Shown one piece after another: positions 2,450 through 18,284 of a stretch of 64,000 nucleotides of DNA. The translations under genes were made by a program, and so were the position numbers. A model generated the notes under the pieces. It did no database searches. It worked only from the letters and a program-made list of their open reading frames with translations, and had not been told where the DNA came from. The number at the start of each line of letters is the position of its first letter. Positions within the stretch are counted from its first letter, which is position 1. The DNA is from Thermosulfurimonas marina (lineage in GTDB: Bacteria; Desulfobacterota; Thermodesulfobacteria; Thermodesulfobacteriales; Thermodesulfobacteriaceae), in the NCBI RefSeq assembly GCF_012317585.1, contig NZ_CP042909.1, forward strand, positions 1,302,001 to 1,366,000, written 5' to 3'.

Positions 2450-3485
2450 CCGGGTCAAAGAGATGGAGATTTCGGGGCTCGCCATGAAATTCCAGCTCCT
2501 GGCCCAGAGAGACCGGGAAGTCTTCCGGGACCAGGGCCCGGATCTCCCGGGAGCCTGTCCTCAGGAAAAGGACCTTTTGCGGGCCCAGGGGCTCCACCAG
2601 GACCACCTTTCCTTTGAGGGTTATCTCTCCCTTTCCGGGTCTTAAGTCTTCCGGCCGCAGGCCTACCTCTATCGGACCTTGATAAGAAACCTCTAGGGGA
2701 AAGCGCAGGTCTCCCTCCTCGGAGGTAAAGATTCCGTCCTCGAGGTGTCCTTTAAAGAAATTGATCCGAGGAAGCCCCACGAAACGGGCCACAAAGCGGT
2801 GGGCGGGTCGATGGTAGACTTCTTCCGGGGGGCCCAGCTGGCGAATCTCCCCACTTTCCATCACCGCTACCAGATCGGCCATGGTCAGGGCCTCGATTTG
2901 GTCGTGGGTCACGTAAAGGACCGTGGCCTCAAGCCTCCGGAAAAGGCGCTTCAGTTCGCTGCGGGTCTCCTCCCGGATCTGGGCATCGAGGTTGCTCAAG
3001 GGTTCGTCCAGGAGGAAGACCTCCGGCTCCCGCACCAGGGCCCGGGCCAGGGCCGTGCGTTGCTGCTGGCCTCCAGAAAGCTCCCGGGGATAGCGTTCAA
3101 GGAGGTCCTCAAGGCCCAAAAGGCGGGCTACCTCCCGCACCCGCCGGTCTATCTCCTGGCGGGGAAAGCCCCGGAGCTTGAGGCCCAGGGCGATGTTCTG
3201 ATAGACGGTGAAATGAGGATAAAGGGCGTAATTCTGAAAGACCATGGCCACGTTGCGTCGGGCCGGGGGCACCCCGTCTACTCTGCGTCCGGCGATGAAG
3301 ATCTCGCCTCTGTCCGGCTCCTCCAGTCCGGCCACCAGCCGCAGGAGGGTGCTCTTTCCACAACCCGAAGGCCCGAGGACCGCTAGAAACTTCCCCCGGG
3401 GAAGGGCCAGATCCACCTTTCGCAGGGCCGGGACCCGCCCTCGGAGATAGCTCTTGGAGACTCCTCGCAGTTCAAGCTGGATCAT
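2424..3485 (-). CDS. ABC importer ATP-binding protein, MalK/UgpC type
   Basis: The 353-residue protein has the full ABC ATPase set: Walker [10 protein letters not shown] near residue 39, Q-loop FQNYALYPH, signature LSGGQQQR, Walker [12 protein letters not shown] and the H-loop THDQ. After about residue 235 comes the extra TOBE/OB-fold domain typical of the carbohydrate-uptake (CUT1) subfamily, which couples to the EAA loops of the two permeases. It is the third gene of an operon, 3 bp after the permease gene. Its 3' end overlaps the convergent CopZ-like gene by 26 bp. Substrate is not predictable from the ATPase; sugars, glycerol phosphates and polyamine-like solutes all use this type. Confidence 0.93.
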
Positions 3486-3488
3486 CCC

Positions 3489-4310
3489 TTAACCCTTTAC
3501 CGCCCCGGCGGTGAGCCCCTCCAGGATCCAGCGCTGAAAGAGGGCCGTAAGGAGGATCACCGGAAGGGTGGTGAGGGCCACCGCGGCGTTGATCTCCCCC
3601 CAGGGGATCTCGTAGGCCGAGGTCCCGCTGAGCATGGCGATCCCCACGGGAACGGTGTAACGGCTCTGGTCCGGAAGTAGGGTGAGGGCGATGAGAAACT
3701 CGTTCCAGCAGAAGATGAAGGTTAGCACCGCACACACCGCAAGTCCGGTGCGGCTGAGAGGCAAAATGATCCGGAAGAGGATACCCAGGCGGCTGAGGCC
3801 GTCCAGGAGGGCGGCCTCGTCCAGTTCCCGGGGCACCCGGCTGAAGGCCGCATAGAGCATCCACACCGCAAAGGGAAGGTTGAGGAGGGCGTAGCTCAGG
3901 GCCACCCCCAGAAGGTGGTTGACCAGCCCCAGGGCTCTTACGGCCATAAAGATGGGGATCACCAAAAGGGTGGGCGGAAGGATGGCCCCGGCCAGAAGCC
4001 ACCACTGCAGGGAAAGGGCCCTTTCCACCGGAAGATACCGCAGGCGGAAGGCCGCGAGGCTTCCCAGAAAGAGACAAAGGAGCGTCCCGCCCCCGGCCAC
4101 AAGAAGGCTATTCAGCACGTAGCGTCCAAAGGGCCTTTTCACCCACACTCGGTAAAAGTTTTCCAGAGAAAGGGGCCAGGGGAAGTAGGTGAGGGGAAGG
4201 GAGAAGACCCTCTCCGGGGGCTTCAGGGCTGTGACCACCGTCCAGTAAAAGGGAAAAAGGCAGTAGGCCGCGGCCAGGGTTCCTAACAAGATTAAAATCG
4301 GGCGTTTCAT
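3489..4310 (-). CDS. ABC importer permease, MalG/UgpE type
   Basis: The 273-residue membrane protein has about six hydrophobic segments and the cytoplasmic EAA loop E-L-D-E-A-A-L-L-D-G-L-S (with R-I-I-L-P-L following), the contact point for the MalK-type ATPase. Size and hydropathy match the second permease of CUT1 carbohydrate importers. Its start overlaps the stop of the upstream binding-protein/permease fusion as ATGA (4307-4310), and the ATPase gene follows after 3 bp, so all three proteins are made from one message as one transporter. Confidence 0.92.
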   Translation of the reverse strand: MKRPILILLGTLAAAYCLFPFYWTVVTALKPPERVFSLPLTYFPWPLSLENFYRVWVKRPFGRYVLNSLLVAGGGTLLCLFLGSLAAFRLRYLPVERALSLQWWLLAGAILPPTLLVIPIFMAVRALGLVNHLLGVALSYALLNLPFAVWMLYAAFSRVPRELDEAALLDGLSRLGILFRIILPLSRTGLAVCAVLTFIFCWNEFLIALTLLPDQSRYTVPVGIAMLSGTSAYEIPWGEINAAVALTTLPVILLTALFQRWILEGLTAGAVKG

Positions 4311-6256
4311 CTTCTTCTTTCATACTCCAGGGTGGTCAGCCGCACAATGAGAAAGCTCAGGCCGATGAGGGCTAGGAAAAAGAGGGCCGTAAGAAAAAGG
4401 GCGTAGCCCAGGTCGTCGTAGCGGAAGGCCAGATCGTAGAGGTAAAGACAGAGGGTGCGGGTGCCGTCAGCGGGCCCGCCCCGGGTGAGCACCCAGATGA
4501 GGTCGAAGATCCCTAGGGCCTGAAGGAGCCGGAAGATGAGGGCTACGCGGAGAAAGGGAAGAAGCAGGGGAAGGTCCAGGTAGAAAAATCTTTTCACCGG
4601 ACCGGCCCCGTCCACAGCCAGGCTCTCTTTGAGCTCCCGGGGCACGGAGTAAAGTCCGGCCAGGAGGATGAGGACCACGAAGGGGGTGGTCTTCCAGACG
4701 TCAGCCAGGATGGCTGACCACATGGCTCCGCGGGGGCTGGCCAGCCAGTCCACGGGATGGGCCAGGACTCCGGCCCGCACCAGGAGATCGTTGATCACCC
4801 CGAAAGGATTGTTGAGCATCCACTGCCAAGAAAGGGCCATGACCGCCGTGGGAAGGGCCCAGGGGATGAGGACGGAAAGCCTCACCCAGGTCCTCCCGGG
4901 AAAGGGGGCGTAAAGGAGAAGGGCCAGGAAGAGCCCCAGGGCGAACTCGAGAAAGACCGAAACCAGGCCGAAAAAGAGGGTGTTTTTCAGGGTCTTGCGC
5001 AGTTCGTAGTCCAGGAAAAGCCTTTTCGCAAGGCCGGTTTCCGGTTCTTCCACGATGAATTTCAGGGTGCGGGAGAGGGCCGTAAGGGCCTCGCGGGGGC
5101 TTTCCACCCCGGCAAGCACCGCACTTGCATGTTTCTGCAGGGTGTCGCTTATGCGGGGGTAGGCGGGATGGACCGGACGCGGCCGGGCCCTCTCTAGGAG
5201 GGGGGCCAGGTCTTGAAGATAGGGACTTTGGCGCAGGAGATCCGGGTCTTGGAAAAGGTCCCTCCGGGCCGGAAGCCAGCCCCGACGGAGGTGGAGGATC
5301 TTCTGGGCCTCGGCCGAAGTAGCAAATTTGATAAAGGCCAAGGCCGTCTCCGGGGCCTTGGTGCCGCGGGCGATCCCTAGCCCCCAGCCCCCGAGGGTCC
5401 CGGCCGAAAGGTGCCCCTTTCGGGTCGGAAGCGGGGCCAGCCCCACCTTCCCCCGCAGGGGAGAACCCTTGCGGTTAATGATCCTCCAGGCGTAGGGCCA
5501 GTTGCGCATAAAAAGGGCCCGCCCCTGGAGAAAAAATTCCAGGGAGTGCTGTTCCTGAAAGGAGAGCACTGCCCGGGGAGAAAGCCCATCTTTTACCAGG
5601 TGCTTAAGGAAATTGAGGGTCCAGAGGCCCGCGGGGGAATTAAGGGCCGGCCTTCCCCGGGGGTCGAAGACCCGGCCCCCGGCCCCCCAGAGAAACTCCA
5701 GGAAATTGCAGGTTAGCCCCTCATACTGCATCCCCTGAAAGACCAGGCAATAAAGCCCCGGAGGGTGAGCGTAGCGCCGGCAGAGATCTTCCAGTTCCTT
5801 CCAGGTGCGGGGAGGGTAGGGAAGGAGGTCCCGCCGCCAGTAAAGCACACCCACGTCCGTGGTCACCGGAAGGCGGTAGAGGTGCCCCCGGTAGTAGCCG
5901 GCCTTGAGGGCCCCGGGGAAAAAGGCCCGGGCCTCCCGGGGGCTCAGCCAGCGATCCAGGGGCAGAAGCCAGCCCCGGGCGGCAAACTTGGCCGTCCAGG
6001 TCACATCCATATAGACGATCTCGAAGGGGTCCCCGCTCAGGAAGGAGCGGATATACATGTTCTGGCGGTCGTCGGTGGACCAGGGTCCGGAGAGGTACTG
6101 GATACGGATTTGAGGGTGCCGGGCCTCAAAACGCCGGATAATCTCCGCCCAGGCCCCGTTCACATCCTCCGGTCCCACCATCCTCAGGGTTACGGGACGG
6201 GCCCCTCCTGAGGCCCAGAAAAAGACCAGAATGAGAAAAAGAACCCTCCTACCCAA
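4307..6256 (-). CDS. Fused solute-binding protein and MalF-type permease
   Basis: One 649-residue frame contains two proteins that are normally separate. Residues 1-20 form a signal peptide or anchor; 22-400 are a family-1 extracellular binding protein (MalE/UgpB-like, with F-E-x-x-H-P-x-I near 43, AGTLGGWGLGI near 285, and F-x-x-S-A-E-A-Q-K near 311). Residues 420-645 form a MalF/UgpA-type permease with about six helices and the EAA motif E-L-K-E-S-L-A-V-D-G-A-G near 541. The join is a helix at 385-405 with no stop or frameshift. With the downstream permease and ATPase it makes a complete CUT1 importer with a tethered receptor. The gene begins the operon. Substrate unknown. Confidence 0.9.
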   Translation of the reverse strand: MGRRVLFLILVFFWASGGARPVTLRMVGPEDVNGAWAEIIRRFEARHPQIRIQYLSGPWSTDDRQNMYIRSFLSGDPFEIVYMDVTWTAKFAARGWLLPLDRWLSPREARAFFPGALKAGYYRGHLYRLPVTTDVGVLYWRRDLLPYPPRTWKELEDLCRRYAHPPGLYCLVFQGMQYEGLTCNFLEFLWGAGGRVFDPRGRPALNSPAGLWTLNFLKHLVKDGLSPRAVLSFQEQHSLEFFLQGRALFMRNWPYAWRIINRKGSPLRGKVGLAPLPTRKGHLSAGTLGGWGLGIARGTKAPETALAFIKFATSAEAQKILHLRRGWLPARRDLFQDPDLLRQSPYLQDLAPLLERARPRPVHPAYPRISDTLQKHASAVLAGVESPREALTALSRTLKFIVEEPETGLAKRLFLDYELRKTLKNTLFFGLVSVFLEFALGLFLALLLYAPFPGRTWVRLSVLIPWALPTAVMALSWQWMLNNPFGVINDLLVRAGVLAHPVDWLASPRGAMWSAILADVWKTTPFVVLILLAGLYSVPRELKESLAVDGAGPVKRFFYLDLPLLLPFLRVALIFRLLQALGIFDLIWVLTRGGPADGTRTLCLYLYDLAFRYDDLGYALFLTALFFLALIGLSFLIVRLTTLEYERRR

Positions 6257-6319
6257 CAGACCCTATTTTATCACTCCGGAGCCCTTCTTAAATGCCTTCC
6301 GGGCCCCTAAAGATTTGCT

Positions 6320-6351
6320 CAAATTTTAAGCAGGCCTTGCCCAAATTTTAA
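6320..6351. repeat. Two copies of CAAATTTTAA, 22 bp apart, upstream of the reductase operon
   Basis: CAAATTTTAA occurs at 6320-6329 and again at 6342-6351. The 22-bp period is about two DNA turns, so both copies face the same side. They lie roughly 55-90 bp upstream of the sigma-54-like promoter, where an NtrC-type activator would bind. They also lie about 65-95 bp upstream of the divergent ABC operon and could serve that instead. Confidence 0.35.
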
Positions 6352-6404
6352 ACAAACCTATTGAGCCCCTCTCCCATAAGTCCCCAATTTTTCGTCAAAA
6401 ATTT

Positions 6405-6422
6405 TTGGTATTCCGGTTGCTT
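6405..6422 (+). promoter_or_regulatory. Sigma-54-type promoter of the ttrBCA-like operon
   Basis: TTGGTAT-N5-TTGCTT places the GG (6407-6408) and GC (6419-6420) exactly 10 nt apart, as in the -24/-12 consensus TGGCAC-N5-TTGC. Transcription would start near 6432, giving a leader of about 28 nt with the AAGGAGG ribosome site at 6447-6453 and ATG at 6460. An NtrC-type activator gene is encoded 8 kb downstream. Confidence 0.55.
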
Positions 6423-6459
6423 AAAAATGGGGGCCATCAAAAACTCAAGGAGGCGGACT

Positions 6460-7185
6460 ATGGCCATTATCGACGTCCAATGGACGGAGGCCCGCGTGCG
6501 CATGATGGAGGATCTGGAGCGGGCCCTCCGCAAGCCTATTGAGAAGCGCCGCTGGGCCATGGTGATCGACCTCGGCAAGTGTATCGGGTGCACGGCCTGC
6601 ACCACGGCCTGTGTGGCGGAGAACCATCTTCCGCCCGGGGTGGTGTACCGGCCGGTGATCTACGAGGAAACGGGGAAGTTTCCCAATGTAAGGGCCCGTT
6701 TCATCCCGCGGCCCTGTATGCACTGTGATCATCCGCCTTGCACCAAGGTCTGTCCGGCTATCGCCACCTGGAAGCGTCCGGACGGGATCGTGGTGGTGGA
6801 TTATCACAAGTGCATCGGGTGCCGCTACTGCATAGTGGCCTGCCCTTACAGCGCCCGCACCTTTGACAAGGGTTATTACTGGTGCGATGGGACCCCGGAG
6901 ATCCCGGCCTACGAAAAACTTCCGGCCTTCGAGTACGGAAAGGTCTGGCCGCGGGAAAAGCGGGAGGAGTCTCCGGTGGGCAATGTGCGCAAGTGTCACT
7001 TCTGTATGCACCGCATTGACAAGGGGCTTCTTCCGGCCTGTATGGTGACCTGCCTCGGGGATGCCACCTATTTCGGGGACGCCAACGATCCCAAGTCCCT
7101 GGTCTCCGAGCTGATCGGCTCCCCGCGGGCGGTGCGGCTTAAGGAACACATGGGCACCAAGCCCTTCGTCTTCTACCTAATTTAG
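6460..7185 (+). CDS. Molybdopterin oxidoreductase iron-sulfur subunit (TtrB/PsrB-like)
   Basis: The 241-residue protein has four ferredoxin-type cysteine clusters in order: [11 protein letters not shown] near residue 44, [13 protein letters not shown] near 87, [11 protein letters not shown] near 119, and CHFC...CMVTC near 181, predicting four [4Fe-4S] centres. This is the electron-transfer B subunit of DMSO-reductase-family enzymes (polysulfide, thiosulfate, tetrathionate reductases), which links the membrane C subunit to the molybdenum A subunit. The frame is open upstream to 6361, but ATG 6460 has AAGGAGG (6447-6453) and matches the normal N-terminus. No own signal peptide is visible, consistent with export bound to the Tat-targeted A subunit. 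Gene order B-C-A equals that of ttrBCA. Confidence 0.92.
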
Positions 7186-7206
7186 GGGGCAAAAGGAGGG
7201 ATAAGG

Positions 7207-8421
7207 ATGAGAGACGGCCTTAAAAAACTGGTCTGGCTGGTAGCCATTGTCCTTTTCGTGGTGGGTTTTTACGGCCTTTATGCACGCCTTACCTACGGGC
7301 ACCGCATGGCCGACTACGGCTCCTATGTGACCTGGGGGCTGTGGGTGGCGGCCTACATCTATTTTATCGGTCTTTCCGCGGGAGCCTTTTCCCTCTCCAC
7401 CCTGGTCTATGTTTTCGGGGTGAAAAGGCTTGAGCGCATCGGGAAACTGGCCCTCTGGACGGCCTTTGCCTGCTTGATCGCGGCCCTCCTTTCCATCTGG
7501 TTCGATATCGGACACCTGTGGCGGGCCTGGCGCATCCCCACGCATTGGCCCGTCTCCATGATGAGCTGGATGGCCGTCCTTTACAGCGCCTACTTCCTCC
7601 TGATTCTGGTCGAGATCTGGTTTGCTATGCGCAAGGACCTCGTCGAGAGGGCCCAGCAGGGTTCGGCCTTCTGCTCCTTTCTCACCTTTGGGAGCCGCGA
7701 CACTTCCCCGGAGGCCCTGGCCCGGGATAAGAAGGTCCTCAAGGTCCTGGGGATCATCGGTATCCCTCTGGCCACGGCCTTCCACGGAGGAGTGGGTACG
7801 CTCTTTGCCGTGGTGGCGGCCAAGCACCACTGGCACAGCGGCCTCACCCCCATCGTCTTTCTCGTGGGCGCGCTCCTTTCCGGGGCGGGCCTTCTCATCT
7901 TTGCCACCTATATCTGGGGCCCCGAGGAGGAGGCTGAACGCAACGAAATGATCAAATTCATGGGCTACATCCTCATCGGTCTTATCTGCTTCGACTTTCT
8001 CCTGGAGATTGCGGAATTTCTGGTGGGCTCCTACGCCAAGGTGCCTGAGGAGTATCTTCCCATCCGCTATATCATTCTCGGCTATTACGGGAAGTACTGG
8101 TACACCTTCTGGATTGTCCACTTCCTGGGTGGGGTGATTCTCCCCATCCTTTTGGCCTGGAGCCGCAAGCCCGGGGCGGTGGCCCTGGCCGGGCTCCTGG
8201 TGGCGGTGACCTTCCTCTCCGTGCGCTTGAACATCGTGGTCCCCGGACAGGTGGTCCCGGAGATCAAGGGTCTGGAATGGGCCTTTTTCGGCCCGGGCCT
8301 CAAGTACTTCTATTTCCCCACCCTGGAGGAATGGCTCCTTACCGCCTGGGTTACGGGCCTGGGCATGCTGATCTTCCTGGTGGGGGAGAAGCTTCTCCCC
8401 GTAAGTGCCAACAAAAACTGA
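7207..8421 (+). CDS. NrfD/PsrC-family membrane quinol-interacting subunit (TtrC/PsrC-like)
   Basis: The 404-residue protein is almost entirely membrane helices (nine or ten), starting DGLKKLVWLVAIVLFVVGFY and containing the NrfD pattern Y-V-T-W-G-L-W-V-A near residue 40 and S-x-G-A-F near 62. NrfD/PsrC subunits bind menaquinol and anchor the B subunit at the periplasmic face. The gene lies 21 bp after the B subunit with its own GGAGGG, and 18 bp before the A subunit, forming one operon. A long reverse open frame across this gene and the next is a GC-composition shadow. Substrate of the complex is not set by this subunit. Confidence 0.92.
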   Translation: MRDGLKKLVWLVAIVLFVVGFYGLYARLTYGHRMADYGSYVTWGLWVAAYIYFIGLSAGAFSLSTLVYVFGVKRLERIGKLALWTAFACLIAALLSIWFDIGHLWRAWRIPTHWPVSMMSWMAVLYSAYFLLILVEIWFAMRKDLVERAQQGSAFCSFLTFGSRDTSPEALARDKKVLKVLGIIGIPLATAFHGGVGTLFAVVAAKHHWHSGLTPIVFLVGALLSGAGLLIFATYIWGPEEEAERNEMIKFMGYILIGLICFDFLLEIAEFLVGSYAKVPEEYLPIRYIILGYYGKYWYTFWIVHFLGGVILPILLAWSRKPGAVALAGLLVAVTFLSVRLNIVVPGQVVPEIKGLEWAFFGPGLKYFYFPTLEEWLLTAWVTGLGMLIFLVGEKLLPVSANKN

Positions 8422-8439
8422 TTCAAGGAGGGCAACCCC

Positions 8440-9484
8440 ATGAAAGAGTTTAAGATAAAGCGCCGGACCTTCCTCAAGTCCCTGGCCTTCGTGGGCGGAG
8501 CGGTGGCCGCCGGGGAGCTCCCCTGGCTCACCCAGCTCTACGCGGACGAGGACGGCTTCTATCACCTGGCCCAAAACGCCTATCCCTTCGACAAGCCGGA
8601 GACCGTGATCTATTCCACCTGTCTCCAGTGCCACACGGCCTGCACCATCAAGGGCAAGATCTATCAGGGGGTGCTGGTCAAGATCACGGGCAACCCCTAC
8701 AGTCCCATGAACATGTGGCCCCAGCTCTCCTACGACACTCCTCCGGAGAAGGCCGTAAAGTACGACGCCCGTCTCTGCCCCAAGGGTCAGGCGGGCATCC
8801 AGAGCCTCTACGACCCCTATCGCCTCCGTAAGGTCCTCAAGCGCAAGCCCGGGACCAAGCGGGGAGAGGGCCAGTGGATCACCATCCCCTTCGAGCAGGC
8901 CATCGAAGAGATCGTAAACGGAGGGAACCTTTTCGGCGAGGGCCATGTGCCCGGGCTTAAGGAGATCTGGGCCGTGCGCGACCCCAAGCTCATGAAGGAG
9001 CTCAAAAAAGACGCCAAGGCTGTGGCCGAGGGAAAGATGAGCCTTGAGGAATTCAAGCGCAAGCATAAGGACCATCTGGACAAGCTCATCGATCCCAACC
9101 ATCCGGACCTCGGCCCCAAGAACAACCAGTTCGTCTTCCTGGCCGGCCGGATCGAGCACGGACGCAAGGAGTTTTCCAAGCGCTGGCTCAAGGACGCCTT
9201 CGGCTCGGTGAACTGGTACGAGCACACCACGGTCTGCGAGCAGTCTCACCACATCGCCTATAAGGAGATGACCCGGAAGTATCACCAGGGCAAGTGGATC
9301 AAGCCCAAGGAGCACATGAAGCCCGATGTGCCTAATGCGGAGTTCGTGATCTTTTTCGGGACCAGCCCCTTTGAGTGCAACTTCGGCCTTCTACGACAGC
9401 CGGGTCAAGCTGGTGAAGGTCTCCGGGGCCCAAGGGGAGCGTCCCTGGGAGGTCTGGGAGAAGTGGGCCCGCAAGGCGGCTTAA
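8440..9484 (+). pseudogene. Molybdopterin oxidoreductase catalytic subunit (TtrA/PsrA-like) with large internal deletion
   Basis: The N-terminus has a Tat signal (KRRTFLK then a hydrophobic stretch) and the [4Fe-4S] motif C-L-Q-C-H-T-A-C-x(n)-C-P-K-G-Q, followed by the first molybdopterin domain up to FFGTSPFECNFG at about residue 316 (near 9385). Family members run to 750-1,050 residues. Here the frame then becomes nonsense, while a different frame from 9386 reads A-F-Y-D-S-R-V-K-L-V-K-V... for 32 codons to TAA at 9482-9484, which looks like the natural C-terminus of such a subunit. Thus an internal piece of roughly 2 kb is missing and the join is out of frame. Most of the cofactor-binding and active-site region is absent, so no enzyme is expected. 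A misassembly is the alternative. Confidence 0.8.
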
Positions 9485-9486
9485 GG

Positions 9487-9699
9487 ATGAGCTTCTGGAT
9501 ACCCCTCCCCATCATCATATTGCTTTTGGTCGGGGTCGGGCGGGCCGGAGGCCCGGCTTCGGCCCTGACCGCCCCTCCTCCCGCCAAAAAACAGGCGGTG
9601 AGGCCGGAGAAGGGGTGTCCGCTCCTCAAGAATCTTCCTTGGTCGGGAAACGGCACGGACAACGGGACAGAAGAAGAGGAGGAGGATTTCGGGTGTTGA
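9487..9699 (+). CDS. Small secreted protein, unknown
   Basis: ATG 9487 lies 2 bp after the stop of the deleted catalytic-subunit gene and opens 70 codons. The product has a clear hydrophobic N-terminus (W-I-P-L-P-I-I-I-L-L-L-V-G-V-G), a possible cleavage after A-S-A near residue 25, a proline/lysine-rich middle and a C-terminal acidic run of five Glu ending in G-C. A strong ribosome site is not seen; GGCGGCTTAAGG just before it is the best candidate. No family recognised. It continues the frame that follows the broken subunit, so it might be a composition artefact, but the signal-peptide-like start and position before the barrel gene favour a small exported protein. Confidence 0.35.
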   Translation: MSFWIPLPIIILLLVGVGRAGGPASALTAPPPAKKQAVRPEKGCPLLKNLPWSGNGTDNGTEEEEEDFGC

Positions 9700-9782
9700 C
9701 CCAAAATTTTCACCAAAGTGACCAGGCCGGGCCTCAGAGTCCCGGCAAAGTTTTGGAAAAAACGCCAAAAGGAGGGAGAGGT

Positions 9783-11216
9783 ATGAAAACGGGAGTCAGA
9801 TGGTTGGTAGGTCTTTTGGCGGTGGTTCTCCTTGCGGCCTTCGGGTACGCCCCGGTGCGGGCGGCTCAGATCGACGATCCGCTGCTCCGGGTCCTGGTGC
9901 GCAAGGGGATCCTGACCGAGGAGGAGGCCTTGGAGATCAAAAAGGAGGCGGAGCTTGAGGCCCAAAAGCAGAAGGAGGAGGTGGCCAAGGCTGCGGCGGA
10001 GAAGGTGGCCAAGGAGGGGCTGGCCCTTCCCAAGGCCCTCCGGGGGGTAAAATTCGGCACCCTCACTTACCTGGACTACACCAACGGATACGGGCCCTTT
10101 GATAACGGAAAAGAGGAGGGGCAGAGCTACTTTACCGTGATGCGTGCTTATTTCAACTTCAAAAAGAAAATCAATTCCTGGCTCTCCTTTCGCTTTACTC
10201 CGGACATCCATCCGGGCAATGAGAGAAGCTATGATCTGCGGATTAAATACGCTTATGCCCAGTTCAAACTCCCTGATTTCGGATTCCTCACCGATCTCAA
10301 GATGGAGTTCGGGCAGGGGCACTTCCCCTGGCTGGACTTTGAGGAGCACATCAACCCTTACCGTATGCAGGGCTGCATGCCTCGGGAGTTCTTCGGCACC
10401 TTCAACTCCGCGGACCGGGGAGTCTCCATTGCCGGGAACCTGGGCGGCAAGCTGGATGCGGACTTCGTGAAACGGCTCACGGCCCACTACCCCATCTACA
10501 ACCACTACGCCGGAAAGTACGGGACCTTCTGGCTCTCTTATATGAACGGCTCCGGGTACTCCAGCGAGGAGGTCAACGAGAACAAGGCCGTGGAGCTGCG
10601 GCTCACCCTCCGGCCCTTCCCCCACTCCACCAGCGGTATGTTCCCCCTGGCCGGCCTTCAGTTTAGCTACTTCGGTATTTACGGCGAAGGTAACAGGGCT
10701 GTGGCCGGTCTTGGGGACCCAGACTACACGGTGAATCTCTTTATGCTTTCCTACCAGCATCCCTGGTTCATGGTGGCTGCGCAGTACAGCACCTCTACCG
10801 GAAATAATAATGGGAAGTGGGTAGTTCAGCGTCCAAGTGGGAAAATGGAAGAGCTTGATACGGAGCTCTATTCTATCTATGCTGATTTTACTCTTCCGGT
10901 ATTCAACGAAAAACTTCACCTTTATGCTCGTTGGGATCATTTCGACCCGAACGACACCGGAGATTACCTTGATACGGATTATGGTCGAATCCCCGATAGC
11001 AATGACGAGGCCGACCACTACATTCTGGCCCTGGCCTACTATCTCACCGGGAAAAACATCCTCATGTTGAGTGCGGAATGGGTGAACTTCGACAAATATT
11101 ACCGTATCGGTGACACGGGATATTTCAATGAGCACTGGGGTGCCTATAATCCTTCCGGGCCGATCAACCTAGACGACGGGTTCCGGATCCAGACCGTGTT
11201 GCAGATTAGCTTTTAA
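9783..11216 (+). CDS. Outer-membrane beta-barrel porin (ExtI-like)
   Basis: The 477-residue product begins with a Sec signal peptide (cleavage near A-R-A-A, residue 26), a short D-P-L-L-R-V-L-V-R-K-G-I-L-T-E-E-E-A helix and coiled coil to about residue 80, then alternating aromatic beta strands and a final strand ending R-I-Q-T-V-L-Q-I-S-F, the classic C-terminal Phe of barrels. The L-R-V-L/V-x-K-G-I-L-T-x-x-E-A start and P-W-L-D-F-E-E-H-I-N-P-Y-R-M-Q-G motif recall the porins of Geobacter ext operons (recognised from memory). ATG 9783 follows AAAGGAGGGAG. A strong terminator follows at 11259. It may admit a sulfur or metal oxyanion, or take part in an electron conduit. Confidence 0.8.
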   Translation: MKTGVRWLVGLLAVVLLAAFGYAPVRAAQIDDPLLRVLVRKGILTEEEALEIKKEAELEAQKQKEEVAKAAAEKVAKEGLALPKALRGVKFGTLTYLDYTNGYGPFDNGKEEGQSYFTVMRAYFNFKKKINSWLSFRFTPDIHPGNERSYDLRIKYAYAQFKLPDFGFLTDLKMEFGQGHFPWLDFEEHINPYRMQGCMPREFFGTFNSADRGVSIAGNLGGKLDADFVKRLTAHYPIYNHYAGKYGTFWLSYMNGSGYSSEEVNENKAVELRLTLRPFPHSTSGMFPLAGLQFSYFGIYGEGNRAVAGLGDPDYTVNLFMLSYQHPWFMVAAQYSTSTGNNNGKWVVQRPSGKMEELDTELYSIYADFTLPVFNEKLHLYARWDHFDPNDTGDYLDTDYGRIPDSNDEADHYILALAYYLTGKNILMLSAEWVNFDKYYRIGDTGYFNEHWGAYNPSGPINLDDGFRIQTVLQISF

Positions 11217-11258
11217 GGGCCCCGAGCCCACCCATACCCACAACCCCACACCCTCCTC

Positions 11259-11287
11259 GGGGCGGGCTCCGGCCCGCCCCCTTTTTA
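11259..11287 (+). terminator. Rho-independent terminator after first porin
   Basis: A perfect 9-bp stem, GGGGCGGGC (11259-11267) with GCCCGCCCC (11272-11280), around TCCG, is followed by a T run (11282-11286). It separates the reductase/porin operon from the second barrel gene. Confidence 0.85.
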
Positions 11288-11342
11288 CTTGAAAATCTTT
11301 CGAAAGGGGTAAACCGCCTAAATCCCTTCGGGAGGTTGGAGG

Positions 11343-12782
11343 ATGCGCAAAATACCCTTGATTCTTCTTTTGACCTTTCTGGTCTTTTTCTTTTCCCTTC
11401 CTCTTCAGGCGGAGGAGCAGCCGAGTCTGGAAGAGATCCTTTCCGAGATCCGGGCCCTTCGGGCGGAGTTGCGGGAGAAGGACCGGCGCATTCAGGCCCT
11501 GGAAGAGGAGGTGAGACGCCTCCGGGCTCAGATGGCCGAAAAGGCCCGGCCTGCGGAAAAGGAGGCCGCTACGGCCAGGGTGGAGATCTCGCCCCCGGTA
11601 AAGAGGGTCACCTTCGGAGGGCAGTACCGCATCAACTCCTACAGTGTGCACACCCATCGCAAGAATCTGAACGCCAGCCGCCTGCGTCTGCGGCAGAACC
11701 TGGACCTGGTCTTCTCCGAGGCCTTTCGCACCCATCTTCAGGTGGAGCTGGGACACACCCCGGCCAATATCACCAAGACCGAGGAACGCCTACGCGTGCG
11801 CCATGCGGTCCTCACCTGGGCCCCCCGCAGGGATCTCTCCCTTGAGGCCGGGCTCCTTCCCCTTTCGGACCGGGCCGCGGAGATGCTCTATTCCGCGGAC
11901 TGGGACTATAACCCCCTGGCCCTGACCCTCTCCTACCGCAACCCTTACTGGGGAAACTTCCGCCTCTTTGCCGCCCAGCTCAACGAGGGGGACGAGGCCC
12001 TGGCCCACGACGATTTCCTGCACTACGAGCTGGACTGGGAGCGCCCCCTTTCCCCGAATCTCACCCTCTCGGCCTTTGCCCTTTACGCCGAGGTGGCCGA
12101 AAACTACGCCAACCCCGCCGGAGGGCCTTCGAGCCACACCCGTCCGCACTTAAACTACGGCCTGGGCCTCTCCTTCAAGCCCTACGAGGACCTCACCCTG
12201 AGAGCGGTGCTGGCCGGTTCTTTCACCGACCGGGAGATCCTGGGCACACCGAACGACGCCTCGGGCTGGCTTCTGCGGCTTGAGGCTGAAAAGACCTTCC
12301 CCTGGGGCTCGGCCAGCCTCCTTTTTACCCACGCCAGCGGGGACTCCGACGGCGAGGGCTTTCTGCCCATTATGGCCCTGGCCGGCACTTACGGCTACTG
12401 GGGCTACACCGGGATTCTCACCGTGCAGGGGCCTACGGATACCGGCTTTGACGACACCGCGGTGAACGTCTCCAACAACGGCTACGGGCTGACCACCCTC
12501 CAGGGCCGCCTCCGGTGGCGCCTTGCGGACTGGGCCGGGTTGACCCTGGCGGCGGGCTGGTTCGGGAACACCGAGGCCCCCGGAAGGGACGACCTCGTGG
12601 GCTACGACTTCCTGGGAATGCTCACCCTCAGGCTCCACCGCTACCTTACCCTGGACCTGGGCCTGGATTATGCTCATCTCAAGGACAGCGTGAACGGCTA
12701 TGAGAGCCGGGACTTCAACTTCGCTCCCGGAAAGGAAGAGGACAAGCTGGCGGCCTTCAGTCGCCTCCAGGCCGAATTTTAG
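11343..12782 (+). CDS. Outer-membrane beta-barrel protein with N-terminal coiled coil
   Basis: The 479-residue product has a Sec signal peptide (to about residue 23, L-Q-A-E-E), a heptad-rich coiled coil at about 28-70 (E-I-R-A-L-R-A-E-L-R-E-K-D), a linker, and then amphipathic strands typical of alginate-export/porin-like barrels, ending F-S-R-L-Q-A-E-F with terminal Phe. The GGAGG (11333-11342) lies just before ATG. The next gene, a 12-heme cytochrome, starts 17 bp after its stop, so the two are made together; a porin-cytochrome pair for electron or substrate traffic across the outer membrane is plausible but the barrel is smaller than MtrB-type conduits. Confidence 0.8.
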   Translation: MRKIPLILLLTFLVFFFSLPLQAEEQPSLEEILSEIRALRAELREKDRRIQALEEEVRRLRAQMAEKARPAEKEAATARVEISPPVKRVTFGGQYRINSYSVHTHRKNLNASRLRLRQNLDLVFSEAFRTHLQVELGHTPANITKTEERLRVRHAVLTWAPRRDLSLEAGLLPLSDRAAEMLYSADWDYNPLALTLSYRNPYWGNFRLFAAQLNEGDEALAHDDFLHYELDWERPLSPNLTLSAFALYAEVAENYANPAGGPSSHTRPHLNYGLGLSFKPYEDLTLRAVLAGSFTDREILGTPNDASGWLLRLEAEKTFPWGSASLLFTHASGDSDGEGFLPIMALAGTYGYWGYTGILTVQGPTDTGFDDTAVNVSNNGYGLTTLQGRLRWRLADWAGLTLAAGWFGNTEAPGRDDLVGYDFLGMLTLRLHRYLTLDLGLDYAHLKDSVNGYESRDFNFAPGKEEDKLAAFSRLQAEF

Positions 12783-12798
12783 GTTCAGGAGGTGGGTT

Positions 12799-14676
12799 GT
12801 GTGGAGGGTGCTTCTCCTGGTGCTTGCGGCGGGGCTTCTTTTCGGGGGGCCCGCCTGGGGGGCTTCGGGCTGCCTGCGCTGTCATGAGGGGATCAAAAAG
12901 ATTGCCGAAAATCCGGTCATGGGGCGCCTTTCCTGCGTCTTCTGTCACCGGGGAAACCCCGAAGGCCGCACCAAGGAAGAGGCCCATCAGGGGCTCTGGA
13001 GCAACCCCTCGGATCTGCGGGTGGTGGACCAGACCTGTGGCCAGTGTCACGGGGAGATCGTGACCCGCCTCAAAAAGAGCCTTCACGCCACGAGTGCCGG
13101 GATCATCAGCGCCGCCCGTTATACCTGGGGCGCGCAGAAGACCCGGCGGGCCCTCTACGCCCCTTACCCGGTGCGCGATGAAGACGGCCACATCCCCGGC
13201 CAGCGCGGGGCCCTTCCGGAACTCCAGGCCCTTCCCCTCTATGATCCTCAAAGACCCATAGGCCCTACCAATCACCCGGTGGACGACTATCTGCGGGCCG
13301 AGTGTCTGCGCTGTCACATCTGGACCCGGGGAAAGGAACGCCCCGGGGACTACCGCTCCAGCGGCTGTGCGGCCTGCCACGTGATCTACGCCGACGACGG
13401 CCTTTACCGAGGAGAGGATCCCACCATCCCTAAAGACGAGCCCGGGCATCCCCGGCTCCACCGCATCACCACCCGCATTCCGGTCTTCCAGTGCCAGCAC
13501 TGTCATAACCGGGGCGGGCGCACCGGGGTGAGCTATATGGGGATGATGGAGTCTGACGGCTACTGCTCGCCCTGGAGCGGAAAGGCCGGGGTGAAGGCCG
13601 GGCGCAAGCTCCACGGTAAGTGCTACAACCACCTAGTGCCGGACATTCACTACGAGCGGGGCCTGGCCTGCATCGATTGTCATCTGGAGCCCGAGATCCA
13701 CGGGGACGGGAACATTTACAGCAAGAAGGATGAAGCGGTGGAGATCGAGTGTGAGGACTGTCACGGGACGGTGAAATCCCCGGCTCCCCTACGCACCTCC
13801 CGCGGGACCTCTTATCCCAACCTTAAGCGAAAGGGCTCACGGGTGATCCTGATCGGAAAACTTGACGGGAGAGAACACCCGGTCCCCCAGGTGCAGGAGG
13901 TGGTGCAGAGAAATCGGCAGGCGGCGGTAGCCATGGAAATCCCGTCCCATGCTCGGAAGCTTGAGTGTTATGCCTGCCATGCGGTCTGGGCTCCACAGTG
14001 CTACGGCTGTCACGCCCAGCAGAACCTTGCGGAAAAGGCCGGAGACTGGTTGCGTTACGGAAAGAGCGCGGACGAAAGTCTCACCGGAAGGGAGAAAAAT
14101 CGCCTCAAGACCGCCCACCACTGGCGCGAGACCCGGTCCTACCTCCGGTGGGAGAGCCCGGCCCTGGGCTGGAACGCCGAGGGCAAGGTGGCTCCCTATA
14201 TCCCGGGCTGCCAGGTCATCTTCACCCAGATTGGCCCGGACGGAAAGCCCCGCTTCCTGAACCACATCTTTAAGACCGCCCAAGGCACCTGGGGTATCGC
14301 CTCCAACCCCATCCAGCCGCACACCGTGCGCCCCCGGGCCCGCTCCTGCGAGGACTGCCACGCCAACCCCAAGGCCCTGGGCCTGGGAACCGGGCTCTAC
14401 CGTGCGGACTGGAACGGGGTGCCCTTTCCCTACGGGCTGGACCAGATCGTGACCCCGGAGGGCCGCCCCATTCAGGCCGTAAGTCACGACGGGGCCCGGC
14501 CCTTCAACGGCAAGGAATTGAGGCGCATCCTGCGGGTAAACATCTGCGCCTCCTGCCACGGATTCATGCGGGATCCCGAATTCTGGAAAAAGGTAGTGGA
14601 CCGAAACGGGCGCGCCCCGGACGATGCCACCCACCGGAAGGTCCTCCGGCACCTTCTCCGGGACTCGGTTCGGTAA
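12799..14676 (+). CDS. Periplasmic 12-heme c-type cytochrome
   Basis: The 625-residue product has twelve CXXCH heme motifs by direct count: CLRCH, CVFCH, CGQCH, CLRCH, CAACH, CQHCH, CIDCH, CEDCH, CYACH, CYGCH, CEDCH and CASCH. The open frame runs further upstream, but GTG 12799 lies 7 nt after AGGAGG (12787-12792) and gives a clean signal peptide (RVLLLVLAAGLLFGGPAWGA) directly before the first heme. No lipobox and no C-terminal membrane helix, so it should be soluble in the periplasm. The family is not one I can name; long heme-free stretches between hemes 10 and 11 suggest a specific docking or catalytic fold rather than a simple wire. It is co-transcribed with the barrel upstream. Confidence 0.92.
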   Translation: MWRVLLLVLAAGLLFGGPAWGASGCLRCHEGIKKIAENPVMGRLSCVFCHRGNPEGRTKEEAHQGLWSNPSDLRVVDQTCGQCHGEIVTRLKKSLHATSAGIISAARYTWGAQKTRRALYAPYPVRDEDGHIPGQRGALPELQALPLYDPQRPIGPTNHPVDDYLRAECLRCHIWTRGKERPGDYRSSGCAACHVIYADDGLYRGEDPTIPKDEPGHPRLHRITTRIPVFQCQHCHNRGGRTGVSYMGMMESDGYCSPWSGKAGVKAGRKLHGKCYNHLVPDIHYERGLACIDCHLEPEIHGDGNIYSKKDEAVEIECEDCHGTVKSPAPLRTSRGTSYPNLKRKGSRVILIGKLDGREHPVPQVQEVVQRNRQAAVAMEIPSHARKLECYACHAVWAPQCYGCHAQQNLAEKAGDWLRYGKSADESLTGREKNRLKTAHHWRETRSYLRWESPALGWNAEGKVAPYIPGCQVIFTQIGPDGKPRFLNHIFKTAQGTWGIASNPIQPHTVRPRARSCEDCHANPKALGLGTGLYRADWNGVPFPYGLDQIVTPEGRPIQAVSHDGARPFNGKELRRILRVNICASCHGFMRDPEFWKKVVDRNGRAPDDATHRKVLRHLLRDSVR

Positions 14677-14680
14677 AAGA

Positions 14681-14700
14681 GGGGGGCCGCAAGGCCCCCT
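14681..14700. terminator. Bidirectional terminator hairpin between cytochrome and regulator genes
   Basis: GGGGGCC (14682-14688) and GGCCCCC (14693-14699) form a stem around GCAA between two convergent genes. On the minus strand it is followed by TCTTTTAC, on the plus strand by TTAGTTT. Confidence 0.65.
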
Positions 14701-16088
14701 TAGTTTCCGGACAGACCGTATTTCTGGAGTTTGGCCCGCAGGGTGTTGCGGTTGATACCCAGGAGGCGAGCGGCCCGGAGCTGGTTGCCCCCGGTCTCCT
14801 CCAGCACCCGGGAAAGAAGGGCCTTTTCCACGGTCGCCAAGACCCGTTCGTAGAGCTCCCCTTCGAGACATTCCTTTCTCAGGCGTTCCACCAGCTCGTA
14901 GGCCAGAAGCCCGGCGGCGTTTCCGCCGGAGGTCCGGGGCTCCGGAAACTGGATATCTTCCGGCAGGATGAGGGAGCCCCGGGCCAGGACCGCGGCCCGG
15001 GTGAGGGTGTTTTCCAGCTCTCTTACATTTCCCGGCCAGGAATAGGCCAGGAGCCTTTCCAGGGCCGCCTGGCTGAGGAAAATCCTCTTTCCCAGCTCCC
15101 GGGAGGCTTTCTCCACGAAGTAGTGGGCGAGGATCGGTATATCCTCCCGGCGCTCCCTCAAGGGAGGGATGTGGATGGTGAGAACCCGCAGGCGATGGTA
15201 AAGGTCTTCCCGGAAGGCGCCTTCGGCCACCAGGGCCTCAAGATCGCGATTGGTGGCGGCCAGCACCCGCACATCCACCCGCCGGGTTCGGCTTGAGCCC
15301 AGGCGCTCCACCGTCCCCTCTTCTAGCACCCGCAGGAGCTTTACCTGGAGGGCCGGGCTCATGTCCCCCACCTCGTCCAGGAAGAGGGTCCCTCCATGGG
15401 CCTGTTCAAACTTTCCGGGGTGAGCCCGATCGGCCCCGGTAAAGGCCCCGCGTTCGTAGCCGAAAAGCTCGGCCTCAATAAGGGTCTCCGGAAGGGCGGC
15501 GCAGTTTAAGGCCACGAAGGGTTGGGCTTTGCGGGGGCTGTAGTGGTGGATGAGGCGGGCCACCAGCTCCTTGCCCACCCCGGACTCTCCGGTGATGAGG
15601 ACCGGGGCCGGTGAGGAGGCCACCTGGCCGATGAGCTTGCAGACCTCCAGGATGGCCCGGCTCTTTCCGATGAACTGCCGACCTTCCCCGAGCCCGGTCT
15701 GGCAGGGAAGACAGAGGCCGCTTTCAATCTCTCGGGAGGTCAGGGCCCGGGAGAGCACCGCCCGCAACTCTTCGGTATCAAAAGGCTTTACCACATACTC
15801 GTAGGCCCCGGCCCGCATGGCCTCAATGGCCGAGTCCGCGTCCGCAAAGGCGGTGATCACGATCACCGGAAGTTCCGGATAGCCCTCCTTGAGCCTTTTG
15901 AGGACTTCCAGACCGGAGAGATCCGGGAGTTTGAGGTCCAGAAGAACCACCGAGACCTCCGGAGAGATCCGGGAAAGGCCGGTCTTTCCGTTTTCGGCGG
16001 TGAGAAAACGGTACTCCTGAAGGGCCCGGGGTAGGGCGTAAGGGATGGACCGATCGTCGTCGATGAGGAGAATGAGGGGTTTAGCCAC
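14700..16088 (-). CDS. Sigma-54-dependent NtrC-family response regulator
   Basis: The 462-residue protein has a receiver domain (acidic triad residues 10-12, phospho-acceptor D51, K101), an AAA+ domain with Walker A GESGVGKE at 167-174 and the sigma-54 contact motif GAFTGA at 214-219, and a Fis-type helix-turn-helix at the end ([16 protein letters not shown]). It activates sigma-54 promoters when phosphorylated. The frame is open further upstream, but GTG 16088 has GGAGGG 5 nt before it and overlaps the kinase stop by 8 nt (GTGGCTAA), so it is coupled to the kinase. The only sigma-54-like promoter I found nearby is that of the ttrBCA-like operon at 6405. Confidence 0.93.
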
Positions 16089-17451
16089 GAGGGCCCTCCG
16101 GATTTTTAATCGGCAGAGAGATCTCCACCTCCGTCCCCTCTCCCTCCCGGGAACGGATTTCGATTTCTCCCCCGAGATTTTGCACCAGATTGTAGGTGAT
16201 GGCCAGCCCCAGGCCGGTTCCTTCGGGCTTGGTGGTGAAAAAGGGCTCGAAGATCCGCTGGCGCACCTCCTCCGGGATGCCTGGCCCGGTATCCCGGACC
16301 GCAAGCCGGAGGTGGCCGTCCTGGAGGGTGGCCGCCAGGTGGAGCTCTCCCCCCTCAGGCATGGCCTCCAGGGCGTTGAGGACCAGGTTGAGCAGGATCT
16401 GTTTCAGGGCCTCCGGCGAGGTCTCCAGAGGAGCCAGGCCCTCAAAGTGGGTAACCAAGGTCACCTTCTGCTTTTTGGCCTGGGGACGAATCAGTTCCGT
16501 CACCTCCCCCAGGATTTCTTCGGGATCCACCCTCTGAAATCTCAATTTTTCTTTTCCGCTCCGGGCAAAATCCAGGAAATTTTTTACGATACGATCGATC
16601 CTCTGGATCTCCTTTTCCAGAACTTCAAAGTCCTCCGGGGTAGCCTTTCCAAGACGGGCCAGTTTCACGAGGAGACTGATGGAGGTCAGGGGGTTTTTGA
16701 TCTCATGGGCCACCCCGGCGGCGAACTGCCCCAGAGCGGCCAGCATCTCCGAACGGGCCATGCGCTCATGGGTCCGGCGAATCTCTTCCACCAGGTCTCT
16801 AATCTGGAGACTCATCTGGTTGAAATTCTTTACCAGTTCCTGGATTTCGCCCACGGCCTTTACCTGCACGGTCTCTCCAAACCCCCCTTGTCCGATCCTT
16901 TGGGCCGCCCGGCTGAGGATCAATACCGGTCGCACCACCCGACGGGCCATCCACAAGGCGGCCAGAGTCCCATTGACCATGATCACCAGAACCAAGATAA
17001 GGAGGCGTTTTTCCGTGTCCCGCATTTTTTGTCCTACAGCTCCTGGGCGAAGATAGAGGCGGATCTCCCCCAGCCGGCCGATATCCGAGGAAACGATCTC
17101 TTCCCGGATGACCACCAGATGGGGGTCGGAACGAAATTCCCGGGGAAACCGGATCTGGATACCGCTGCTTTCGGAAAAAAGTTCCGCTCCCACCAGGTCG
17201 GGCTCGCTCTGGACGGCATTTTTAAGGAGGGCGTAGAGACGATAAAGGTCCTCGTAGAGGAGGGGTTCGGTGGCCTCTCGGGCCAGGGCCTGGGCTTGAA
17301 AGTGGAGCCGGGCCAGGATTTCCCGCTGGAAGAAGGCCTTTTCCCGGGAAAGGATGAGGTAGGAGACCGCCAGGGTGGTAAGGGCAATGATCAGGGTGAG
17401 GGTCGCGGAGATCTGAAAGGCCGCGCTGCGGAGGAACCTCAGAAGGGGCAT
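16081..17451 (-). CDS. Sensor histidine kinase, NtrB-like
   Basis: The 456-residue protein has a membrane helix at about 13-34, a periplasmic sensor loop of roughly 115 residues, a second helix at about 150-170, a HAMP linker, the phospho-accepting H-box A-G-V-A-H-E-I-K-N-P-L-T-S (His 249) and an ATPase domain with N-box, D-T-G-P-G-I and G-T-G-L-G-L. It is coupled on both sides: its start overlaps the PhnD-like gene by 13 nt and its stop overlaps the regulator start. The periplasmic loop is too small for a PhnD fold, so the adjacent separate PhnD-like protein is a natural partner for ligand sensing. Confidence 0.93.
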   Translation of the reverse strand: MPLLRFLRSAAFQISATLTLIIALTTLAVSYLILSREKAFFQREILARLHFQAQALAREATEPLLYEDLYRLYALLKNAVQSEPDLVGAELFSESSGIQIRFPREFRSDPHLVVIREEIVSSDIGRLGEIRLYLRPGAVGQKMRDTEKRLLILVLVIMVNGTLAALWMARRVVRPVLILSRAAQRIGQGGFGETVQVKAVGEIQELVKNFNQMSLQIRDLVEEIRRTHERMARSEMLAALGQFAAGVAHEIKNPLTSISLLVKLARLGKATPEDFEVLEKEIQRIDRIVKNFLDFARSGKEKLRFQRVDPEEILGEVTELIRPQAKKQKVTLVTHFEGLAPLETSPEALKQILLNLVLNALEAMPEGGELHLAATLQDGHLRLAVRDTGPGIPEEVRQRIFEPFFTTKPEGTGLGLAITYNLVQNLGGEIEIRSREGEGTEVEISLPIKNPEGPRG

Positions 17452-18284
17452 CTCTTGAGGATCTCAAGGGTTTGGCGATAGATTTCGTGTTTCGGGGGCA
17501 GGAAGCGTTCTATACCCATCTTCTGAAGCACTACCCGGCCTTCCGGATCTTCGGGCATATGAAGGAGGAGACTCAAGACTTTCCGCCGGAATTCCTCCGG
17601 GCTTTCGGGCGAGGCTACAAAGGGCGGAATCCCCAGGAGGGGAGACTTTTCCAGGATGCGCACTTTATTAACATAGGAGATCCCCCGGACTTTGAGGTCT
17701 TCAAAGACCAGGCTGTCCACGGAGGCCCCGTCCACCAAACCCGCGGCCACTATCTCGATGGACTTTTCGTGCCCGTGAGAATAAAAGACCTTCCGGAAAA
17801 GTTTTTCCGGCGAGGTTCCCAGCGTGCGCAGGCGGGCCAGCACATAAAGCCGGCCGGTAAGGGAGAGGGGGTCGGTGAAGACGAAGGTTTTCCCTCGGAG
17901 GTCTTCAAATCGTCGGTAGGGGCTATCCTTGGCCACGATGATGTAGGCCTGGTAATAGTAGCGGCCGTGGATGACCGGGATGGCCAGGAGCTTTAGCCCG
18001 AAATCTTTGCGCCCGGCCAGAAAGGCCCCGGTGCACACATGCCCAAAATCTGCCTCCCCGGAGGCCAGCATGCGGTTTACTTCTTCGTAAGTGCGGCGTT
18101 GTTTAAGGATTACCGGTCTTCCCAGCTTCCGGGAAAGATAGTTAACCAGGTCATAATAGGTCTCCATGGTGATGGTGGGGGAGGTCATAGGGGAGACCAC
18201 AAAGACATAGGCCTCTCTGGCCTGCACCCCCCCGGCCCAAAGGAGGATCACCAGCCATATAGTCCAAAATTTCATAATTTTCAA
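17439..18284 (-). CDS. PhnD-like periplasmic binding protein, probable sensor component
   Basis: The 281-residue product has a signal peptide (cleavage near V-Q-A-R, residue 23) and a type-2 periplasmic binding fold of the PhnD class: S-P-T-I-T-M-E-T-Y-Y-D-L-V-N-Y-L near 34, E-A-D-F-G-H-V-C-T-G-A near 77, V-A-K-D-S-P-Y near 117, and the F-E-D-L-R-G-K-T-F-V-F-T-D-P motif near 126. No ABC permease or ATPase of the phosphonate type is nearby; the gene is instead the first of a three-gene operon with a kinase and a sigma-54 regulator. In TtrS and ThsS the same fold is the sensor domain for tetrathionate and thiosulfate. TTG 18284 is supported by AGGAC spacing; ATG 18275 is an alternative. Confidence 0.85.
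   Translation of the reverse strand: MKIMKFWTIWLVILLWAGGVQAREAYVFVVSPMTSPTITMETYYDLVNYLSRKLGRPVILKQRRTYEEVNRMLASGEADFGHVCTGAFLAGRKDFGLKLLAIPVIHGRYYYQAYIIVAKDSPYRRFEDLRGKTFVFTDPLSLTGRLYVLARLRTLGTSPEKLFRKVFYSHGHEKSIEIVAAGLVDGASVDSLVFEDLKVRGISYVNKVRILEKSPLLGIPPFVASPESPEEFRRKVLSLLLHMPEDPEGRVVLQKMGIERFLPPKHEIYRQTLEILKRCPF

Follow-up and report, generated by a model that had tools for sequence, protein, structure and literature searches.

The window analysed in this study comprises 64,000 nucleotides of the genome of Thermosulfurimonas marina and harbours an operon whose genes follow the order ttrB-ttrC-ttrA, with subunits of the ferredoxin and NrfD type. The left border of the locus is formed by a divergent gene of the ABC-transporter type (positions 4307–6256, minus strand). 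It is followed on the plus strand by the intact B gene (6460–7185), which encodes a four-cluster ferredoxin-type subunit of 241 residues (Pfam Fer4_11) whose best NCBIfam matches, DsrO, TtrB and ArrB, all stay below cutoff, and by the intact C gene (7207–8421), which encodes an NrfD/PsrC-like membrane anchor of 404 residues (Pfam NrfD). The gene of the A subunit occupies positions 8440–9484. Downstream, on the same strand, are a retained small gene (9487–9699) encoding a secreted protein of 70 residues with the acidic tail EEEEEDFGC, a proposed sulfur-carrier partner of A, and the first gene of an outer-membrane-protein/multihaem cytochrome operon (9783–11216). Ribosome sites are found ahead of B, C and A. 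The view of the first-pass annotation that B, C, their ribosome sites and their promoter are intact thus holds for the two genes and the ribosome sites, but a sigma-70-type scan located no promoter upstream of B on that strand.

The condition of the A gene becomes apparent in comparison with its intact orthologue in a MAG of the same genus and with the same downstream gene order, labelled Thermosulfurimonas dismutans HyVt-483 (G005, contig C84, record DRMH01000084.1). There, the gene encodes a molybdopterin catalytic subunit of 1,067 codons, of which the window keeps codons 1–316 and the last 31–32, two thirds of the gene having been removed by one deletion. In a BLASTN alignment, window and contig match in two collinear pieces (8237–9386 to 1–1165 and 9389–18198 to 3327–12144), with 2,159 bp missing from the window. 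Since this length corresponds to 719 codons plus 2 bases (3 x 719 + 2), the deletion shifts the frame of A. The 5' remnant (8440–9387, plus strand), which is 92% identical to codons 1–316 of the orthologue, starts with the ATG at 8440 and a twin-arginine signal (KRRTFLKSLAF), contains the Fe4S4 domain (Pfam Molybdop_Fe4S4, residues 55–125) and a Mo-ligand-type cysteine region, and stays in an uninterrupted frame up to residue 316. Beyond the junction (9386–9389), the 3' remnant (9389–9484, plus strand) comprises the stop codon and the 31 codons before it, now in another frame, and matches the extreme C-terminus of the orthologue (FYDSRVKLVKVSGAQGERPWEVWEKWARKAA, stop at 9482–9484). The first-pass annotation had recognized that this ttrBCA-like operon lost roughly 2 kb from inside its A gene in an out-of-frame manner, with a normal N-terminal part and the true C-terminus in another frame, and this is borne out by the comparison.

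Mapping of Pfam domains on the intact orthologue assigns the lost segment to residues 317 to about 1035 and thus to nearly all of the Molybdopterin domain (253–712) and the whole of the Molydop_binding domain (892–985). From the domain set of the DMSO reductase/CISM family, the window gene retains Fe4S4 only, whereas the intact orthologue contains Fe4S4, Molybdopterin and Molydop_binding. As a consequence of this loss, the locus as sequenced cannot give rise to a catalytic A subunit. A search for the missing middle part elsewhere in the one-contig genome gave as closest match a segment of 36% identity in a separate TtrA-like gene, and relocation of this part is therefore rejected. With an intact syntenic orthologue that differs by a single collinear gap and a missing segment that is absent from the genome, the A gene has the properties of a deletion pseudogene. 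As a type of gene loss, the deletion is nothing unusual, and what gives it interest is which gene has gone and in the neighbouring protein with a C-terminal cysteine.

The family relationships of the enzyme are reflected in the properties of the intact A subunit, which scores 572 bits against the TtrA profile (curated cutoff 1750), 177 against PhsA and 119 against ArrA, while the remnant in the window scores 131 bits against NF011567/PRK14991, so that neither reaches the TtrA cutoff. An AlphaFold model of the intact subunit (pLDDT 87.7) finds its best PDB matches in ArrA (6cz7, E 3e-38) and PsrA (2vpw, E 2e-35) and is predicted to have the catalytic fold of the DMSO reductase/CISM family. The operon shares with the Salmonella-type TtrBCA system (PRK14991), which is the best curated family match of the intact subunit, its B-C-A order, a Tat-exported A subunit with Fe4S4 and molybdopterin domains, a ferredoxin-type B and an NrfD-type C. 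Unlike in that system, the score of A is far below the cutoff, C matches NrfD/DsrP/HybB and no curated TtrC family, and a protein with a cysteine tail adjoins the operon. We assign the module to a putative enzyme of the tetrathionate-reductase type, a family defined by the reduction of tetrathionate to thiosulfate.

The remaining genes of the operon show the signature of strong purifying selection. Compared with the orthologues in G005, B is 94.6% identical with a dN/dS of 0.05, C is 90% identical with a dN/dS of 0.10 and the A remnant has a pairwise dN/dS of 0.08, from which the loss looks recent, as proposed at first pass, although such low values mostly reflect the time before the deletion and set an upper bound on its age rather than a date. 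At sites that are invariant in six outgroups, the A remnant departs at 15 positions and G005 at the same 15, and polarised changes in A amount to one on the window branch and two on the G005 branch, with no excess on the former. Apart from the deletion itself, the dN/dS values of the three genes and the branch changes in A show nothing that would indicate decay. Separately, within positions 6460–14676, synonymous divergence between the window and G005 is about 0.6–0.7 in B, C and A and about 0.8–1.3 in the neighbouring porin and cytochrome genes, a difference that may originate from transfer of the module or from uneven rates.

The genes downstream have a history of their own. The porin operon belongs to the core of the genus, where it is present in all six members (five besides the window genome), and it is also found in G008, independently of BCA. 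In G001, G003 and G008 it is preceded by other genes, and the BCA genes together with the cysteine-tail gene therefore look like an accessory insert. Among the relatives, the full A gene is found in G005, its 3' part in G002 and the cysteine-tail gene, at a contig edge, in G004, and the window deletion occurs in the window genome only. At 9690–9720, the stop of the cysteine-tail gene overlaps a conserved stretch (TGACgCAAAATTTTCAC), which is also located upstream of the porin gene in G001, where BCA is absent, and which probably functions as a regulatory element for the porin genes. The porin gene is followed (11343–14676) by genes for another beta-barrel-like protein of the outer membrane and for a multihaem c-type cytochrome (matches to Cytochrom_c3_2 and Cytochrome_C7), which look like an outer-membrane electron conduit.

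Since B and C are still under purifying selection, the two subunits could work in trans with another catalytic subunit, as suggested in the first-pass annotation. Five matches to PF00384 are contained in the genome, of which a single one is TtrA-like (G000:C1:1179523-1182714, equivalent to L040:5524-8715). This protein carries a Tat signal, scores 548 bits against PRK14991 and has no gene for an NrfD-type membrane anchor nearby, and one published survey has taken a distant ttrA and ttrBC as one enzyme (PMC9751629). However, it contains an N-terminal ferredoxin domain of its own and its homologues are maintained across the genus, including relatives where the BCA operon was not found, and it thus appears not to need B and C of the window. 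The protein might in principle recruit the orphan C subunit, but since it also occurs in genomes that lack BCA, it has no need to do so. In addition, its A-type identity is just 36–40%, and a recent deletion also explains the constraint on B and C. A partnership in trans is thus disfavoured and we regard it as rather unlikely. Genes for Ku and an ATP-dependent DNA ligase are located just downstream of this TtrA-like gene.

The intact A gene of the close relative could also suggest that the true genome of T. marina carries a full-length gene that was collapsed or misassembled, an option raised in the first-pass annotation that we consider quite unlikely. The genome consists of one contig of 1,763,258 bases and is 99.96% complete. 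No repeat flanks the junction, the longest word shared within 60 bp of both ends being 8 bp and located off the junction, and a repeat-mediated collapse is therefore rejected. The right border of the deletion reads CCTTCTA in both G002 and G007. The comparison suggests that no more than 2 bp (CC) of microhomology exist at the junction, a value deduced from an intact orthologue that is about 87% identical in DNA. Such a junction with almost no homology fits end joining, which is available to an organism with genes for Ku and an ATP-dependent DNA ligase. The most telling evidence against an artefact comes from G007, a member of a sister genus in the same family, where a different deletion has eliminated this operon. 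In this locus (L186, G007:C42, 1097-1340), about 28 codons of B run straight into A from codon 1018, so that only the final 50 codons of A remain behind the already frameshifted start of B and the BCA module is lost, while the divergent ABC gene beside the B remnant, the cysteine-tail region and the porin gene are retained with no N run inside. Although the assembly of G007 is 64% complete and, like those of G005 and G002, fragmented and probably metagenome-derived, its deletion is, from its boundaries, larger than and independent of that in the window, which points to loss of the module as a recurrent biological event. The deletion is present in the sequence and very probably also real in the organism.

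A feature that had been overlooked at first pass concerns the frame entered after the junction, which is free of stops up to 9699 and fused to the next gene. The resulting chimeric frame of 419 codons (8440–9699, plus strand) combines residues 1–316 of A, 33 out-of-frame codons and the whole small gene, which extends from the ATG at 9487 to the TGA at 9699 and is read in frame. The open frame and the conservation of the cysteine tail in G002, G004, G005 and G007 might suggest that the chimera is kept for use, with the Tat signal and Fe-S head of A exporting and anchoring the cysteine-tail protein. However, in G005 and G002 the small gene overlaps the 3' end of A, with a possible start 22 bases before A terminates, in a frame that is already open upstream, and an open fusion is thus expected for one of the frame outcomes, as a by-product of the frame chosen rather than as evidence of selection. 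Moreover, the same fusion is found in no second genome and the frame in G007 differs. We thus find a selected chimera unsupported and very improbable.

A natural family of short A subunits, finally, has nothing in its favour and is rejected with hardly any reservation, since the terminal part of a full-length A persists downstream in another frame and since, among the best 80 of the 513 relatives confirmed in the genome collection, from Desulfobacterota, Chloroflexota, Nitrospirota, Campylobacterota and other phyla, A is encoded in a single full-length frame unless cut by a contig end or flank limit, with none ending near residue 316 for any other reason. Most of these 80 loci contain B, and many a recognizable NrfD-type C, upstream of A.

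The comparison of relatives also illustrates a recurrent property of the region downstream of A, where an open frame ending in cysteine follows directly in 21 of the 102 loci with enough sequence, compared to 3.1% of open frames in the background; after removal of near-identical cases, about 14 distinct loci remain (binomial P ~1e-6). In nearly all of these tails the final residues are Gly-Cys, frequently preceded by acidic ones (EEEDFGC, DMGC, GGC). The loci span several phyla and the body of the protein is often of the TPR-rhodanese type. TPR and rhodanese bodies are found in L049 (11210-12019), L050 (5630-6958), L053 (11238-11939), L060, L157 and L158, with Pfam matches to a Rhodanese domain preceding the C-terminal cysteine in the first four. 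Short secreted bodies occur in Campylobacterales (L113, L114, L126) and a tail-only form in the window, L066 and L087. Further proteins of this kind are located downstream of A in L077, L109 and L162, and one is located upstream of B (L097:5164-5967). Despite their differing architecture, they share an acidic or Gly-rich tail with cysteine as the very last residue. The recurrence of such a secreted neighbour suggests that it could serve as a periplasmic sulfur-carrier arm of TtrA-type enzymes.

Wolinella polysulfide reductase PsrABC with its sulfur donor Sud resembles the proposed system in that a molybdoenzyme anchored by an NrfD-type subunit can receive its substrate sulfur from a rhodanese in the periplasm, and PsrA is among the nearest solved structures. 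In contrast, identity is low (18% over the fold), the neighbours described here carry an acidic tail with a terminal cysteine, and the small protein of the window shows no match in Pfam, including to the rhodanese domain of a Sud-like donor. A literature search for a described cysteine-tail carrier beside Psr or Ttr enzymes gave as sole parallel the metallopterin ergothioneine synthase MES, a DMSO-reductase-family enzyme that is fed by a cysteine at the very C-terminal end of its sulfurtransferase module, where Cys1135 of 1136 residues is essential and supplies sulfur to the bis-MGD enzyme (PMC9516567). Since MES contains a fused cysteine desulfurase and catalyses a different reaction, this is an analogy only. 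We tentatively propose, as an idea that may well prove wrong, that these proteins constitute an undescribed class of periplasmic sulfur carriers, in which unrelated bodies use an acidic linker and a C-terminal Gly-Cys to hand sulfur to the Mo site, and that in T. marina carrier and electron-transfer subunits have outlived their enzyme.

Collectively, we hold with considerable confidence that the locus is a dead but young BCA operon that was inactivated by one 2,159-bp deletion. The operon would have encoded a periplasmic, quinone-linked enzyme of the CISM group and the tetrathionate-reductase type, in which B is the ferredoxin subunit, C the NrfD anchor and A the molybdopterin catalytic subunit exported via Tat; the next gene specifies the secreted protein with a C-terminal cysteine tail. 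The single event, probably end joining, deleted A from codon 317 to about codon 1035. The 419-residue chimera of the Fe-S head and the cysteine-tail protein is most likely unstable and functionless, while production of B, C and the cysteine-tail protein could continue, including by initiation at their own starts. With its operon predicted to be catalytically dead, the organism would have to rely on other enzymes for its sulfur metabolism.

This has consequences for the understanding of thiosulfate disproportionation, for which TtrBCA-type proteins were proposed as key enzymes based on proteomics of Desulfolithobacter dissulfuricans GF1 and on gene distribution, with TtrBCA and the protein of an adjacent gene, GF1_03960, detected only during this process (PMC9751629). 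Compared by its published description, the GF1 operon resembles the one described here in its BCA order and its adjacent hypothetical protein, and its orthologue group includes Desulfuromusa kysingii (L081 in our collection), whereas A is intact in GF1 and deleted in T. marina. The same text lists T. marina with a TtrA orthologue and without a PhsA orthologue. As length was the criterion for ttrA in this survey and distant pairs of ttrA and ttrBC were admitted (PMC9751629), T. marina may have scored via its second TtrA-like gene. Surveys that count ttrA by mere presence would mislabel the organism. T. marina disproportionates elemental sulfur, sulfite and thiosulfate (PMC12998232, Table 1) with the catalytic gene of BCA broken, and the BCA-type enzyme thus cannot be required there. 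It thereby offers a ready natural knockout of a proposed key enzyme of disproportionation, and the partner with a C-terminal cysteine provides a concrete and testable idea for the delivery of sulfur to such enzymes.
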